The notes beneath the pieces were generated by a model. It made no database searches. It saw nothing but the letters and a program-made list of their open reading frames with translations, and was not told the origin of the DNA. The position numbers and the translations under genes were made by a program. This document shows positions 56,343 to 64,000 of a stretch of DNA of 64,000 nucleotides, piece after piece (position 1 is the stretch's first letter; each line of letters starts with the position of its first letter). This DNA comes from Streptomyces populi (lineage in GTDB: Bacteria; Actinomycetota; Actinomycetes; Streptomycetales; Streptomycetaceae), in NCBI RefSeq assembly GCF_002911015.1, contig NZ_KZ626847.1, positions 1-64,000 on the forward strand, written 5' to 3'.

Positions 56343-56651
56343 GCGGGGCAAGGGTAGTTGGGCTACGGGGCGCCCGGGTTCCGATCAGATCCGTGCCGGG
56401 GACCGGGTTCCGGTCCCCGGCACGTCAGCCGTCCGTCCGGTACGGCGCGGAGCGGACCCGCCGGGCCGTGTTCGCGGCGAAGGAGACACTGTCGTCCGGG
56501 TCTCTCCCGGCCCGCTACCGGTGTCCGCCCGGTCGGCCTCGCCGTCGACCGGCCGAGGAACGGGTCGACCGACCCTCTGTGAGCCCGTCCCGCATGGCCG
56601 CGATCTACGTGTGATGTTGCCGAGAGCGGCCGCTTGTTAGTCTTTCCGATC

Positions 56652-57080
56652 ATGCGAGCCCTCTTCCCAGGATCCTTCGACCCGATCACTTCAGGGCACC
56701 AGGACGTACTCCGGCGCGCTGCCCTCCTGTTCGACGAGGTCGTCGTGTGCGTGATGTTCAATCCGAACAAGACCGGCCGCTTCCCCGTCGCGGAACGGCT
56801 GGACCGGCTCCGCGCGGCAGCGGCCGACTTGGGCAACGTGACGGTCGACTCCCACACCGGCGGCCTGCTGGTCGACTACTGCCGCCGAGCCGGAATCGAC
56901 GTCGTCGTCCGCGGGGTCCGGGGCGTCGCCGACCTGGACTACGAAATGCCGATGGCCCGCATGAACCGTGAACTGGCGGGAGTCGAAACGTTCTTCATCG
57001 CCGCGGACCCCGCCCTGGCCCACATCTCCTCCACCCTCGTCACCGCGATGAGCCGACAGGACCGTGTCCCCGAACGGTGA
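56652..57080 (+). CDS. Phosphopantetheine adenylyltransferase paralogue (CoaD-like), short C-terminus
   Basis: 142 residues from ATG 56652; housekeeping CoaD is about 160. The nucleotidyltransferase motifs are intact: PGSFDPITSGHQDVLRR (T/SxGH), MFNPNKTGRFPV with the substrate lysine, VVRGVRGVADLDYEMPMARM and HISSTLVTAM. The last helix with the usual GGDVSxLVPP sequence is absent; the protein ends SRQDRVPER. It probably still transfers AMP to phosphopantetheine or a related phosphate. A second CoaD gene beside an acyltransferase group could boost CoA supply, use a different substrate, or confer resistance to a CoaD inhibitor. All three are inference. Confidence 0.88.
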   Translation: MRALFPGSFDPITSGHQDVLRRAALLFDEVVVCVMFNPNKTGRFPVAERLDRLRAAAADLGNVTVDSHTGGLLVDYCRRAGIDVVVRGVRGVADLDYEMPMARMNRELAGVETFFIAADPALAHISSTLVTAMSRQDRVPER

Positions 57081-57461: not shown

Positions 57462-58331
57462 ATGCGCTCTTCGGAAACTCTGACGCTTGATCAGGTGGTC
57501 GACACGGACCGCTACCCCCTGTCGGACATCACGAGCGCCCGGGGACAGGCCGTGGTTTCCCGTGCCCGGCACGACCTGGCGACTCTCGGCTGCACCGTGC
57601 TGCCGGACTTCGTCCGCCCGTCACTGCGCGATGTGCTGCGGCAGGAGTGCTCGGCCATCGCCCCCCGGGCGCACCACGACGTCGAGACGGTGAACGTCTA
57701 CAACATCGCGGTGGACTCGGAGCTGCCGGACGGCCATCCGGGACGGAAGACCTTCGAGCGGGGCAACGCGTTCGTCGCGCGGGACCGCATCCCCGCGGAC
57801 GCCCTCATCGGCCGGCTCTACTCCGACACGGTGTTCCGGGACTTCGTCGCCCGCTGCTTCGAACTGCCGGAGCTGTACGAGCTGGCGGACCCGCTCTCCG
57901 GGCTGGTTCTCAACGTCGTCGCGCCGGGCATGGAGCACCCCTGGCACTTCGACACCAACGAGTTCACCGTGAGCATGCTCACCCAACAGGCGCAGGCCGG
58001 CGGCGTCTTCGAGTACTGCCCGAACATACGGACCGCGCAGGACGAGAATTTCGACGACGTCCGGGACGTGGTGGACGGCCGGGGCGAGCGGTTGACCCGG
58101 CGCCTCCCCCTGCAACCGGGTGACCTGCAGTTGTTCAAAGGCCGCTACTCGCTGCACCGGGTGAGCCCGGTGCGTGGCGAGGTCGCGCGCCACTCCGCGA
58201 TCTTCGCCTACAGCGAGCGCCCCGGTGTCATCGGGAGCGTGGAACGGACCCGGCAGCTCTTCGGCCGGGTACTGCCCGAGCACCTGGCGGCCGAGGGCCG
58301 GGCGGTGCGCGGCGACCGGCTCCTGGACTAG
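57462..58331 (+). CDS. Fe(II)/2-oxoglutarate-dependent oxygenase (phytanoyl-CoA/HalD-like fold)
   Basis: 289 residues from ATG 57462 (GAAAGGA upstream). The facial triad is readable: H162 and D164 in HPWHFDTNEFTV, and H232 in YSLHRVSPVRGE, followed by R243 for 2-oxoglutarate. The segment GGVFEYCPNIRTAQDENFD resembles the BesD/HalD group. The aspartate is present, whereas radical halogenases have glycine there, so this should be a hydroxylase rather than a halogenase. Relatives act on free amino acids. It heads a set with a methyltransferase and a carnitine-type acyltransferase and may install the hydroxyl group that is later acylated. Confidence 0.88.
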   Translation: MRSSETLTLDQVVDTDRYPLSDITSARGQAVVSRARHDLATLGCTVLPDFVRPSLRDVLRQECSAIAPRAHHDVETVNVYNIAVDSELPDGHPGRKTFERGNAFVARDRIPADALIGRLYSDTVFRDFVARCFELPELYELADPLSGLVLNVVAPGMEHPWHFDTNEFTVSMLTQQAQAGGVFEYCPNIRTAQDENFDDVRDVVDGRGERLTRRLPLQPGDLQLFKGRYSLHRVSPVRGEVARHSAIFAYSERPGVIGSVERTRQLFGRVLPEHLAAEGRAVRGDRLLD

Positions 58332-58401
58332 CGGGCGGCGCGAGAACGCGTAGTCGCCGCAGGCCGTTTCCCTTGCGCGATCCCACGGAGGAGTAAGCCC
58401 T

Positions 58402-59247
58402 GTGCGTTTCGACGTGACCGGAAAAGTGTCACTCGACCATATCTACGACCAGCCCGATCCGCGTACCTACTTCAGGGTGCTGCGCCCCCTCGACTACGGC
58501 GTCCCGCAGCAGGCCAAACCCTACTTCGCCAAGATCATCACGGAGTACCGGGAGTCCCGGCACGTCGCGGTGCCGAAGGTGCTGGACATCGGATGCTCAT
58601 ACGGAATCAACGCCGCCCTGCTGAAGTACGACGCGACCATGGACGAGCTGTACGCGCGGTACGGCGACGAGGAGCACATGGGTGAGAGCCGCGAGGCTCT
58701 GCTGGCCCGCGACCGGGAGCTGGCCCGTTCACGCCAGCCCCCGCAGGCGATCCGCTTCACCGGCCTCGACACCTCCGGCAGCGCGCTGTCCTACGCTCGC
58801 GAGGCCGGGTTCCTCGACGACGCGGTGCACGCCGACCTGGAGGCGCACGAGCCCACACCGCGACAGCGCGCCCAGCTCTCGGGCACGGACCTGGTGATCT
58901 CGACGGGCTGCGTCGGCTACGTCACCGAGCGGACGCTCACGCGAGTCGTCCGGGCGCAGGGCGTCCACCGGCCCTGGATGGCGCACTTCGTGCTGCGGAT
59001 GTTCCCGTTCGACCCCGTCGAGCGCGCGTTGGCGGGTCTGGGCTACCGGACCGTCCGCGTCGACGAGGTGTTCAGGCAGCGGCGGTTCGCCTCCCCGCAG
59101 GAACAGGCACTCGTACTCGACAGCCTGTCGGCCGCAGGAGTGGATCCACGGGGCCTGGAGGCGGAAGGCTGGCTGTACGCACAGCTCTACATTTCCCGGC
59201 CGCACGACGTCACAAGTACCGACGATCCGAATCGAGACCAGAGTTGA
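58402..59247 (+). CDS. SAM-dependent methyltransferase
   Basis: 281 residues from GTG 58402 with GGAGGAG upstream. The SAM-binding loop is VLDIGCSYGINAALL and the ribose-binding acid is in FTGLDTSGSALSYA. The N-terminal extension (LDHIYDQPDPRTYFRVLRPL) and C-terminal beta-strand region (VDEVFRQRRFASPQEQALVL) do not point to a known substrate class. The stop overlaps the TTG start of the acyltransferase (TTGA), so the two are translationally coupled. By context I infer N- or O-methylation of the oxygenase substrate or product. Confidence 0.85.
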   Translation: MRFDVTGKVSLDHIYDQPDPRTYFRVLRPLDYGVPQQAKPYFAKIITEYRESRHVAVPKVLDIGCSYGINAALLKYDATMDELYARYGDEEHMGESREALLARDRELARSRQPPQAIRFTGLDTSGSALSYAREAGFLDDAVHADLEAHEPTPRQRAQLSGTDLVISTGCVGYVTERTLTRVVRAQGVHRPWMAHFVLRMFPFDPVERALAGLGYRTVRVDEVFRQRRFASPQEQALVLDSLSAAGVDPRGLEAEGWLYAQLYISRPHDVTSTDDPNRDQS

Positions 59248-61067
59248 AGACCAGTCAGGATGGTTCGGGCAACGCGACCTTCGCCCAGGAGGAAAGCCTC
59301 CCGCGCGTTCCGCTGCCCACGCTGGATGCCAGCTGCGAGAGGTTCCTCGCATGGTGCACGCCGCTGCTGACCGCCGACGAGCGGTCGGAGACCGAGGCGG
59401 AGGTCGCCGCCTTCCTCCGGCCCGGTGGCCCCGGCCGGGTGCTGCATGCCGCCCTGGAGGAATACGACGCCACGGAGGGTGTGCACAGCTGGCTCGACAC
59501 CTTCTGGCCGTACCGGTACCTGGGCCGCCGGGACCGGATCGCGCTCAACGCCAACTTCTTCTTCCTGTTCCAGGACTCGGACCAGGCGCAGGTGGAGCGG
59601 GCGGCCGGGCTCGTGGCCGGAGCCCTCAACCACAAGCGGCAGATCGATCAGGGGCTGATCGCACCGGTGGTGCAGCGCGGAGCACCTCAGTCGATGGTGC
59701 AGAACAAGTTCCTGTTCTCCACCACGCGCATTCCCGGCGCGCTCCAGGACACCGTCCGTGCTCCCTACACCGAGGAGTGGCCCGGTCCGTCCCAGGCCCG
59801 GCACATCGTGGTGTTCTTCCGGGGCGGCATGTTCCGGCTGGACGTGCTGGGTCCGGACGGTGTCCCGCACAGCCTGGACGACATCGAGGCGGGGCTGCGC
59901 GCCGTGATGAAGGCCGACCCGGTCGGTGCGGACGTCCCGGCGGGCCACCTCACCACCATGGCCCGCGCGGAGTGGGCGGCCGCCCGGGAGGCCCTTCTCG
60001 CCTGCCACCCCCGCAACGCCGAGGCCCTCGACGACGTCGAGACCGCGCTGTTCTGTCTCGCACTGGAGGACTTCGCCCCCGCGGACGTCCAGGACGCCTG
60101 TGACCAGCTGCTGTACGGAGACCGCGGCAACCGCTGGTTCGACAAGGCCGTGTCCTTCGTGGTCTTCGCCGACGGACGGGCGGGCATCAACGTCGAGCAC
60201 TGCGAGTTGGACGGGACCACGATCCTCAGCTTCACCGACGCCCTGCTCGACACCCCGGCCGAGGAACAGTCCCGGCAGTCCGGAGCCCGCTCCCAGGGGC
60301 TGCCGGCGCTGGAGCCGATCGTGTTCGAACTGGACGACGCGCTGCGGGACCGGGCGCGCTCCGCCGCCGACTCGTTCGCGGCGTACGGGGAGAACACCGC
60401 GACCAGCACGTTGTCGTTCGCCGACTTCGGCAGCAGCGCGGTCAAGGCGCTGGGAGTCTCGCCGGACGCCTTCGTCCAGGCCGCGTACCAGCTCGCCCAC
60501 CAGCGAGCCAAGGGGCACCTGGGCGCCACGTACGAGTCGATCGCCACCCGGCAGTACCGGCACGGGCGGACCGAGGCGATGCGCGTCGTCACCACCGAGA
60601 TGGCCGCCTTCGTGGAGGCGATGGAGGACCCGGCAGCGGACGCGGACGCCCGGCGCGACGCGTTCCGGGCGGCCACCGAGGCCCATGTGGCGCGTGCGAA
60701 GGCGTGCCAGGCCGGGCAGGTGCCGGAGCAGCACCTGTGGGAACTGGAGTTGATCCAACGCCGGCGGGGGGCCGAGCTCGGGGTGACCGAGCAGCCCGCG
60801 CTGTACCGGACGCCGGGCTGGCTGACCATGCGGGACGACTACCTGAGCACGAGTTCCGCGCCGTCCGTCAACATCCAGTACTTCGGCTTCGGGTCGACCA
60901 GCAGCCGGTGCATCGGTGTGGCCTACGTGCTGCTTCCCGATCGGTTCAATCTCTACCTGAGCACGCCGTTGCCGGTCGCCGCGCAGATGCGCACGTTCGC
61001 CGACCGGCTCCGGGAGGCGGTGGACGAACTCCGGGAGCTGCTGGCGCCCGAGCGGCCCGAGGACTGA
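59244..61067 (+). CDS. Carnitine/choline O-acyltransferase family enzyme
   Basis: 607 residues, full length for a family best known in eukaryotes. The N-terminal LPRVPLPTLDASCERFL is the first PROSITE-type signature. NHKRQIDQGLIAP, NRWFDKAVSFVVFADG and GINVEHCELDG follow, the last with the catalytic H319. YESIATRQYRHGRTEAMR and DYLSTSSAPSVNIQYFGFGS carry the arginine and STS residues that bind the carnitine carboxylate and acyl group. It should move an acyl group between CoA and the hydroxyl of carnitine, choline or a similar betaine. It starts at TTG 59244, coupled to the methyltransferase stop. No membrane segments or targeting sequence are seen. Confidence 0.93.
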   Translation: MKTSQDGSGNATFAQEESLPRVPLPTLDASCERFLAWCTPLLTADERSETEAEVAAFLRPGGPGRVLHAALEEYDATEGVHSWLDTFWPYRYLGRRDRIALNANFFFLFQDSDQAQVERAAGLVAGALNHKRQIDQGLIAPVVQRGAPQSMVQNKFLFSTTRIPGALQDTVRAPYTEEWPGPSQARHIVVFFRGGMFRLDVLGPDGVPHSLDDIEAGLRAVMKADPVGADVPAGHLTTMARAEWAAAREALLACHPRNAEALDDVETALFCLALEDFAPADVQDACDQLLYGDRGNRWFDKAVSFVVFADGRAGINVEHCELDGTTILSFTDALLDTPAEEQSRQSGARSQGLPALEPIVFELDDALRDRARSAADSFAAYGENTATSTLSFADFGSSAVKALGVSPDAFVQAAYQLAHQRAKGHLGATYESIATRQYRHGRTEAMRVVTTEMAAFVEAMEDPAADADARRDAFRAATEAHVARAKACQAGQVPEQHLWELELIQRRRGAELGVTEQPALYRTPGWLTMRDDYLSTSSAPSVNIQYFGFGSTSSRCIGVAYVLLPDRFNLYLSTPLPVAAQMRTFADRLREAVDELRELLAPERPED

Positions 61068-61076
61068 ACGGACCCC

Positions 61077-61140
61077 GCCGGACCGTGGTCCCCGACCGGG
61101 ACTCCCGGTCGGGACTCCCGGTCGGGGACCACGGTCCGGC
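61077..61140. terminator. Very strong bidirectional hairpin
   Basis: A perfect 25-bp inverted repeat (61077-61101 and 61116-61140) lies between the acyltransferase and the convergent unknown gene. The 14-base loop can itself fold (TCCCGGTCGGGA). Confidence 0.9.
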
Positions 61141-61200
61141 CCGCCTCGAAGTCCTTCTGCGAAGTCCGTCCTGCGGCAGCGCCTGCGGGGCTTTCGCGGC

Positions 61201-62343
61201 TCAGTGGCGGCGGGCCCAAGTGGCGAGCGGAGCGGCGCGGTAGCCGGGGGCCGGTGTCGCGCTGAGGCTCTGCGCCAGCGCGGCCGGCTCGACGGGCGCG
61301 GAGGCCACCTGCACGCAGGCGGTCTTGGGTTGCGTGGTGCTCTGTCCGAACCGGCAGGCCACGCCGGTCAGCCTGATGGTGATGAAGTCGGTGATCTGCG
61401 CGCCGAACCGAATGGGCTTGCCGTTGATCTTGATGTCGCCGACGGTGAAGCCCTTGTCCTGGGGCACCTCGTAGACGAACCGCACGGGGTGGGTCGCGCT
61501 GCCGCGCTGCCTGATCCAGTAGTCCTTGGGGTCCGAGCCGTCCGGGGTGGCCCAGCCGTCCGTGGCCAGACCGTCGAAGTAGAGACCGACCGGGTCGGCG
61601 AGGGAGACGTCCGCCTTCTGCCGGGCGAGGGCGTTCACGGATCCGCCGATGTGCGGGTCGCTGTTGCGCTCGGGCGCGCCGTACTTGCTGCAGTTGATGA
61701 GTTCCTGCTCGGTGGTCAGTTCGTGGCCGTCGACGACCCGCACGATGGTGGCCGCGGCCGCGAGTTCGATCTCGGCGCCCAGGGTGTTGTTGGGCTGGAT
61801 CAGATGCATGGCGCCGTCCGTCGTGGAGTCGTTCCACCGGTTACGGGGGTTGTAGGTGCCGGTGGCTCCGAAGAGGTCGCTGTGCTGGATGTCCGGGTTG
61901 ATGTGTGTCCGGTAGAGCTCGAGAACCTCGGCAGGGTTCGACTGGGCGAGCAGATGCCAGTACTCGGGGCCCTCGCAGGTGAACAAGACCTTGGTGATCT
62001 TCCCGGCGGCATCGCGGGTGACGCTCCACTCGCAGTACTCGTCCTGGACGTCCCGGCTGGCGTCGGCCCGCTGCCACCGCTGGGCGTCGGACAGAGACTG
62101 GATCTTGACCAGACGGGGGAAGGCCGTCCAGGTGACGGAGGCCTCCTGGGCGTCGGCCGCGGTGTCGGTCTTGGTGAGGTTGTAGAACTGACCGCGAGGG
62201 CTGTCGTTGAGCACCTCATGGGGGTCGGGGCCCGTGATCGAGTTGTCGACCTGGCCGCTGATGAACATGTTCCAGGCCTTCAGACCGGTCTCGTCGAGAT
62301 CGTCGAGGTGTCCGGGCGGGCCGTAGGAGGCGAGCGGGCTCAT
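61201..62343 (-). CDS. Unrecognised 380-residue protein
   Basis: 380 residues from ATG 62343 with AAGGAG upstream. There is no signal peptide or membrane segment. Notable stretches are CEWSVTRDAAGKITKVLFTC, CEGPEYWHLLAQSNPAEVLE, NRWNDSTTDGAMHLIQPNNT and LGAEIELAAAATIVRVVDGH, then DPHIGGSVNALARQKADVSL and YIRQ-like/PDGSDPKDYW. Several His, Asp and Cys residues could bind a metal, but I do not recognise a family. It lies 59 bp after an equally unrecognised gene on the same strand, so the two probably form an operon. They converge on the acyltransferase set. Confidence 0.75.
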   Translation of the reverse strand: MSPLASYGPPGHLDDLDETGLKAWNMFISGQVDNSITGPDPHEVLNDSPRGQFYNLTKTDTAADAQEASVTWTAFPRLVKIQSLSDAQRWQRADASRDVQDEYCEWSVTRDAAGKITKVLFTCEGPEYWHLLAQSNPAEVLELYRTHINPDIQHSDLFGATGTYNPRNRWNDSTTDGAMHLIQPNNTLGAEIELAAAATIVRVVDGHELTTEQELINCSKYGAPERNSDPHIGGSVNALARQKADVSLADPVGLYFDGLATDGWATPDGSDPKDYWIRQRGSATHPVRFVYEVPQDKGFTVGDIKINGKPIRFGAQITDFITIRLTGVACRFGQSTTQPKTACVQVASAPVEPAALAQSLSATPAPGYRAAPLATWARRH

Positions 62344-62402
62344 GGGGCACTCCTTCGCTGAGAGGTGGCCGGGGACGGATGAGCCACGGACGCGGGCGGC
62401 TG

Positions 62403-64000
62403 TCAGGAGGCGGGTGCGACCGTGCCGTCGTCGTTCATCCTGAGCCGTGCGGCGTCCACGGGAATGTTGGTGGTGGGCAGCGTCAGCTCGAACTCGTTGA
62501 GCCGCATCGCCTTGAAGTCGCGGCGGCGGGACTCCGCCAGCCGGACGTAGTCGTCGAAGCCGGCGGACTCGCGGATCCGTCGGCCGACGCGGCCGAGGTA
62601 GTCGTCGATCCGCTGGGCGAAGGTCTTGGGCCAGACGTCGTCCGCGAGGGCCCAGGCGGCGGCGAAACGGCCCTCGGGGCTGCTGGGCGGCAGACTCGTG
62701 GCGGCTTCCAGGATCGCCTGTACGGTGTGGTCCTGCAGCTCGGTCACAGCGGTCGGCGTGGTGGGGACATGGGCCATCAACTGCGCCCGGACGGAGCTGA
62801 AGACCGGATCGGTGAAATCGACCATGAACGCGCAAGCGGCGAACTTGTCCGTGATCAGGCCCTGTTCCACCATCTGCCGTACCACGTCGTTGTCCTCGCA
62901 GGCCGGCTCCGGTACGACGAAAGCGAAGAACGTGTCCCCCGGCTGAGAGAAACCGCTGCTCTTCTCCTCCAGGGCGAAGTCGAAAGTCGTAAGGCTCTCG
63001 ACGTAGTGGGCGGCCGGGGCCATGGGGGGAAGGGCGGCCGTGACGGGCAGTTCGAGATCGCTCAGGAGCGCGTCGCCGTTCAGCCAGAAGCCCGGGGGCA
63101 GCAGCAGGTCACCGCTGGAGGGGGTGATCGTCGAACTCTGGGTCGTCGTACTGGCCAGGTTCACCGCGGTCGTGGTGAACAGATGGCGCATCAGCTGCTC
63201 GGGATGTTCCACGATGCCGTCCTGTGCGACGGCTGCCAAGCGCGCGGCGGTCCAGCGGCCGATCAGCGCGCGGACGGTCAGCTCGAGATTCTCGGCGCCG
63301 ACGACCTGCTGATACAGCGGGTCGTCACGGAAGGGGGAGTCCGGGGCCAGGCGGATCGTCGCAGCCTGGGACTGCCAGTTGCTCCAGGGCGCTTTCAGCT
63401 CCTTCATCACGACGCTGCCGTTGATGTGGCTGTCGAAGCAGCCGTGGCCGCGGGAGCCGGGGGCGAGGGCGGACCACGAGTTGCCCGCCCACACCCACAC
63501 GGGGCTGAGCCGCATGTAGTAGTTGAAGACCTTCGCGACCGGGTCCCAGGCGGCGACCTGCAGGAACGTCGCGGCCGGATCCTCGTTCGCCCCTGTGCTC
63601 ACCAGCAGGTCCACGTCCCGGCCGGTGGCGGCGCGAGCGACGGCGAACCGCATGGCGCGCGGCGGCTCGGGGGCGGAACCGAGCGGTATCTGCCCGGCCT
63701 CGCCGATCAGGTACACGGACTGGTTCGCTTTCGTCGCCGGCTCGGGCAGCCCGGCGAGGAGATCCTGCACCGTCAACGGGAAGGCGTCCTTGCGGAAGAA
63801 CAACTCGGCCATCGGATCCCCCAGCTCCGCCAGCTCATGGGCCTCCAGCGGGCGGGCCTGCTGATCGACGCCCACCACGAAGCGGTACAGCTTCGGTGCG
63901 TTCCGGTCGTCGAAGTCCGCGTCGCCCAGGGCGGAAAGGACCGCACGGCTGGTGGGGTGTGCGATTCCGGGTGGGGAGCCGCGGGTCTCCGCGGTGCGAG
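62403..64000 (-). CDS. Unrecognised protein, 5' end beyond the window (partial)
   Basis: At least 531 codons; the frame is open through the right edge, so an apparent start at 63878 is internal (upstream residues include SRAVLSALGDADFDDRNAPK). The protein is soluble, with FYRF-like LYRFVVGVDQQARPLEAHEL at the left, YYMRLSPVWVWAGNSWSALA, GCFDSHINGSVVMKELKAPW, LLLPPGFWLNGDALLSDLEL, and a C-terminal FDDYVRLAESRRRDFKAMRL. I do not recognise the family. It is probably co-transcribed with the 61201-62343 gene. Confidence 0.75.
   Translation of the reverse strand, partial: RTAETRGSPPGIAHPTSRAVLSALGDADFDDRNAPKLYRFVVGVDQQARPLEAHELAELGDPMAELFFRKDAFPLTVQDLLAGLPEPATKANQSVYLIGEAGQIPLGSAPEPPRAMRFAVARAATGRDVDLLVSTGANEDPAATFLQVAAWDPVAKVFNYYMRLSPVWVWAGNSWSALAPGSRGHGCFDSHINGSVVMKELKAPWSNWQSQAATIRLAPDSPFRDDPLYQQVVGAENLELTVRALIGRWTAARLAAVAQDGIVEHPEQLMRHLFTTTAVNLASTTTQSSTITPSSGDLLLPPGFWLNGDALLSDLELPVTAALPPMAPAAHYVESLTTFDFALEEKSSGFSQPGDTFFAFVVPEPACEDNDVVRQMVEQGLITDKFAACAFMVDFTDPVFSSVRAQLMAHVPTTPTAVTELQDHTVQAILEAATSLPPSSPEGRFAAAWALADDVWPKTFAQRIDDYLGRVGRRIRESAGFDDYVRLAESRRRDFKAMRLNEFELTLPTTNIPVDAARLRMNDDGTVAPAS

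Follow-up and report, generated by a model that had tools for sequence, protein, structure and literature searches.

The window, i.e., the whole stretch of 64,000 nucleotides under analysis, lies on contig C8 of the Streptomyces-like genome G000. Three co-directional genes, coding for an oxygenase (OX), a methyltransferase (MT) and an acyltransferase (AT), span positions 57462-61067 of the forward strand in this order. The features of the locus are:

57462..58331, forward strand: OX, 289 aa, predicted Fe(II)/2-oxoglutarate hydroxylase of the BesD/HalD fold family
58387..58401, forward strand: ribosome-binding-like ggagga 5' of the MT start, read from the sequence
58402..59247, forward strand: MT, 281 aa, class I SAM-dependent methyltransferase, an optional member of the unit
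59244..61067, forward strand: AT, 607 aa, choline/carnitine O-acyltransferase family (PF00755)
61077..61142, forward strand: long GC-rich hairpin directly 3' of AT, -72.3 kcal/mol, z -6.9 versus shuffles

The open reading frames are positioned where a sequence-only reading of this DNA had called a 2-oxoglutarate oxygenase, a methyltransferase and a full-length acyltransferase. OX and MT are separated by 70 bp, and MT starts with GTG. The TTG start codon of AT overlaps the MT stop by 4 bp, which agrees with the translational coupling of MT and AT proposed in that reading. With a hairpin of -72 kcal/mol located 3' of AT, it is likely that the operon ends at this point.

Inspection of the surroundings yielded no further member of the unit. 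The upstream coaD-like gene (56634-57080, forward strand) is shortened at its end, with 132 of 155 profile positions matched. It was dismissed as a CoA-supplying partner because none of the 80 OX loci discussed below has it and because another, full coaD is present on contig C9 of the same genome. On the reverse strand, 61201-63998 holds two large adjacent open reading frames of about 544 and 531+ aa, which have no Pfam or NCBIfam match and were not found beside the trio in other fetched Streptomyces regions. About 40 trio regions were fetched and searched on both sides for conserved neighbours; synteny was limited to individual clades and involved unrelated genes.

The three genes themselves were traced through genomes. 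PF00755 proteins are encoded in 44 of 393 Streptomyces genomes, and 43 of these have an AT of the type described here. OX is present in exactly the same 43 genomes, always adjacent to AT by coordinates; MT adjoins them in 32 of these loci, whereas 11 operons lack it. Thus, about one in nine Streptomyces species (~11%) carries the unit, as do many other actinomycetes. In a survey of the class, PF00755 was detected in 42 of 395 genomes. OX and AT occur together in 18 of 20 extended regions fetched, the remaining two being an OX-less second copy in G409 and one divergent AT. A wider scan for OX in about 85,000 species genomes resulted in 80 loci from Streptomyces, Actinomadura, Frankia, Amycolatopsis, Saccharopolyspora and others. 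An AT adjoins OX in 79 of them, the last one stopping at a contig edge, and MT is located between OX and AT in 74. A plasmid collection contained no AT match. Co-conservation, suggested by the sequence-only reading as a check of its proposal, is therefore evident for OX and AT. For MT it mostly is: the gene has its place in 74 of 80 loci, though at least three lineages lack it in the operon. That the three genes are coincidental neighbours and do not form a pathway has a virtually negligible probability. The flanks do vary and carry unrelated genes, as such a view would predict, but it is contradicted by the identical genome sets of OX and AT in 393 genomes, by an adjacency which extends across several families, and by fusions of MT with AT.

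The 44th Streptomyces genome, G069, contains a divergent PF00755 protein (29% identical, carnitine Arg kept) in an NRPS-type cluster (L054:175-10796; G069:C1 about 555175-565796). By eye, the other genes of this cluster were named as encoding an NRPS that ends in a reductase-like domain, a flavin-dependent oxidoreductase/halogenase-like protein, two methyltransferases and an aminotransferase; a distant MT homologue is located about 4-5 kb beyond the cluster.

AT is a full-length member of its family. In a profile search it matched PF00755 with E 2e-155 over profile positions 1-573 of 574. Among 131 AT homologues H319 is invariant and S535-T536-S537 is invariant or nearly so, in accord with the catalytic His319 and STS motif noted earlier. 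Alignments to CPT2, COT and CrAT demonstrate that AT keeps H319, D323, STS 535-537, Y92, Y430, E431, T443, D408 and F549. Of these, Y92, S537 and F549 occupy the positions of CrAT Tyr107, Ser554 and Phe566, which hold the trimethylammonium group; the residues of this ammonium pocket, their roles read by homology, are invariant in the 131 sequences. In CrAT, Arg518 binds the carnitine carboxylate, Met564 is the acyl gate and Phe566 is part of the ammonium site. The position of Arg518 is Arg in CPT2, COT and CrAT and Gln (Q496) in 131 of 131 AT orthologues, i.e., the carnitine-specific Arg has been lost from AT. This Arg is retained in two divergent PF00755 proteins encoded at other actinomycete loci, and therefore the change to Gln belongs to the AT clade. 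The Met564 position is Phe (F547) in 130 of 131 sequences. From the known role of Met564, a Phe at the acyl gate suggests that short acyl groups are favoured, which argues against a long-chain storage ester.

Residue roles in CoA binding and catalysis in this acyltransferase family were taken from PMC11852590. The CoA lysine K423 of CrAT is kept as K401 and is invariant in the 131 AT sequences, as is D408. The K419 position is occupied by S, A, Q, T or G, never by Lys. As one of the two lysines for the CoA 3'-phosphate is thus replaced, an acyl-carrier protein is a possible donor for AT.

Compared with known acyltransferases, AT shares with CrAT, COT and CPT2 the fold family, the full-length match, the catalytic His, the STS motif, the carnitine-site Tyr and Thr and the Phe566 equivalent. 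It differs by the exchanges of Arg518 for Gln and Met564 for Phe, by the lack of a VPDG turn, by the non-Lys residue at K419, and by being a bacterial protein encoded beside an oxygenase and a methyltransferase. Choline acetyltransferase (ChAT) belongs to the same family and likewise lacks the carnitine Arg; presumably it has Asn at this position. However, AT scores slightly lower to ChAT than to CPT2 and CrAT, it is part of a bacterial operon, and choline as its substrate is without support. Fungal PKS-linked carnitine-acyltransferase domains exemplify the use of PF00755 in specialised metabolism, whereas AT is free-standing in a three-gene operon without a PKS. Taken together, AT looks related to, yet not identical with, carnitine-acting enzymes.

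The assignment of OX deviates from the expectation of an oxygenase as in carnitine biosynthesis. HalD (BesD-like) was the only Pfam family reported (E 2.4e-12, profile search); the carnitine-biosynthesis hydroxylase family (TauD-like PF02668/GBBH) gave no Pfam match. The best PDB matches of an AlphaFold2 model of OX (mean pLDDT 74.5) are HalB, BesD, the lysine hydroxylase 7jsd, HalD and HalA, all from the BesD/HalD family, so profile and fold agree on membership. The triad H162-x-D164...H232, which had been read as intact, and the 2-oxoglutarate Arg R243 are invariant in 110 homologues. H162-F163-D164 is found in 110 of 110 sequences; OX thus has HxD like the hydroxylase 7jsd, and not the HxG of BesD-type halogenases in which Gly/Ala replaces Asp. 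BesD holds the lysine carboxylate via R77, H137 and W241, and the ammonium via D239, D143 and E123 (PMC13244439). According to the HalB alignment the carboxylate-binding H137 is kept as OX H159, whereas D143 and E123 correspond to T165 (110/110) and L145 (109/110), neither of which is acidic. With H159 kept and the acidic ammonium-binding residues of a BesD-type lysine oxygenase replaced, OX is predicted to be a hydroxylase of the BesD fold that binds its substrate in another manner than BesD binds free lysine. Identity to the BesD family and 7jsd is about 15-20%. The resemblance to eukaryotic carnitine biosynthesis with its trimethyllysine and gamma-butyrobetaine hydroxylases is limited to the principle that methylation, hydroxylation and acylation are combined; OX stems from another 2-oxoglutarate-oxygenase family and no further pathway genes are linked. 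As a separate observation, one genome encodes a second OX-like gene, 33% identical, away from any AT (L071, G366:C22:40055-40861).

MT by itself has no significant Pfam match, only weak ones to the Methyltransf_12/25 models. Its AlphaFold2 model matches class I Rossmann methyltransferases generically, with no specific relative, and the SAM motif D62-x-G64 is invariant in 114 homologues, so its designation as a SAM methyltransferase holds. An attempt to read the substrate from the structure failed: with generic fold matches, N-, O-, C- and S-methyltransferases were not distinguishable.

The evolution of MT is more eventful than that of its partners. On the AT tree six changes of MT state are needed, at least three of them on well-supported branches. 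By this tree MT was part of the ancestral unit but is not needed in cis, and the operon has lost it on at least three occasions while retaining OX and AT. At some loci MT is frameshifted. Conversely, MT and AT form a single open reading frame in three genomes (L170, L174, L185); the fusion linkers are alike, so these may represent one event. Three of six automatically called fusions were rejected, MT being in a different frame. Hence the claim of a three-gene unit stands with respect to the one-to-one relation of OX and AT and to the MT-AT fusions, but MT is not obligatory in cis. In G409, AT is present twice (L107/L122): OX and an MT remnant accompany one copy, whereas the second has MT but lacks a nearby OX, so that the unit looks split between them.

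A distant MT homologue (38-45%) is present elsewhere in the genome in 11 of 11 MT-less Streptomyces versus 4 of 32 trio genomes (Fisher p 2e-7), an association which comes down to 2-4 independent switches or pairs. The homologue is also encoded in 73 of 349 AT-free Streptomyces genomes. Most of the eleven MT-less genomes share one syntenic locus for it, which is present in a genome without AT as well. In MT-less strains the distant paralogue may supply the methylation, or the substrate may already be quaternary; alternatively, these lineages may simply not need methylation. Two further observations concern MT relatives. At a syntenic Streptomyces locus (L057-L063, L072, L073) a distant MT homologue (38-42%) has molybdopterin dehydrogenase genes, a PucR regulator and a FhuF-like protein as neighbours. 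An MT homologue 59% identical is located on a short contig (L070, G113:C90:1607-2422) of a genome in which neither AT nor OX was found.

We propose that OX, MT and AT constitute a stand-alone small-molecule operon, and we infer its substrate, step order, N-methylation and acyl length as follows. The substrate of OX would derive from an amino acid or amine and be hydroxylated at an unactivated carbon. MT would methylate this substrate, most plausibly on nitrogen, to generate a quaternary ammonium; N-methylation is preferred mainly because the ammonium-pocket residues of AT are invariant. AT would then take a short, probably acetyl-like acyl group from acyl-CoA and attach it to the hydroxyl introduced by OX, to give an O-acyl hydroxy-betaine or a choline-like ester, not an acyl-carnitine. 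To this reading, in which the operon product is a hydroxylated and probably N-methylated amine, other than carnitine, that bears a short-chain O-acyl group, we assign a probability of roughly 40%. Quite tentatively, one may specify it as a pathway, undescribed and widespread in actinomycetes, in which a BesD-type hydroxylase, an N-methyltransferase family and a re-specified acyltransferase lead to an acetyl-like O-acyl ester of a quaternary-ammonium alcohol which is neither choline nor carnitine.

The principal competitor dispenses with the quaternary nitrogen. OX and AT alone would make an O-acyl hydroxy amino acid or amine, its nitrogen free or non-quaternary, and MT would be a lineage-specific tailoring enzyme, e.g., for O- or C-methylation. 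The repeated loss of MT from a persisting OX-AT pair, the MT relic and the frameshifted copies point in this direction, as do the fold relatives of OX which act on free amino acids. We nevertheless regard it as somewhat unlikely: MT is ancestral, sits in 74 of 80 OX loci and is at times fused to AT, every MT-less Streptomyces checked has a distant MT, and the ammonium pocket of AT does not vary.

A carnitine-like pathway along the lines of the sequence-only reading would have MT supply a betaine, OX hydroxylate the carnitine position and AT form an acyl-carnitine or a long-chain storage or signal ester; it survives in part. The genes are linked and the trio is co-conserved, family membership of AT is solid, and the ammonium-pocket residues are kept together with Y430 and T443, which are near the carnitine carboxylate in CrAT. 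Yet the Arg for this carboxylate is uniformly Gln in AT while two other bacterial PF00755 proteins retain it, Phe at the acyl gate speaks against long chains, and OX is of a different family than the carnitine-biosynthesis oxygenases. On balance such a pathway is improbable. Quite improbable, too, is a use of acyl-carrier protein or another pantetheine thioester by AT, with the trio tailoring the product of a PKS or NRPS encoded elsewhere. The missing K419 lysine and the distant PF00755 protein in the G069 cluster would be compatible with it, but D408 and the second CoA lysine (K401) do not vary, and the scan of conserved neighbours revealed no PKS or NRPS genes.

A search of the mainly freely accessible literature on bacterial carnitine acyltransferases, on the trio and on actinomycete acylcarnitines brought up nothing relevant, in keeping with the earlier statement that a bacterial pathway with this trio is not known to have been described. 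The trio combines known enzyme families in a way that is uncharacterised, and it is not categorically new. Choline/carnitine acyltransferases have been studied almost exclusively in eukaryotes, and a conserved bacterial branch with an altered pocket suggests a separate role. Since the unit comprises just two to three genes and about 11% of Streptomyces possess it, it lends itself readily to expression, and to being linked with a metabolite by a comparison of strains that have or lack it.
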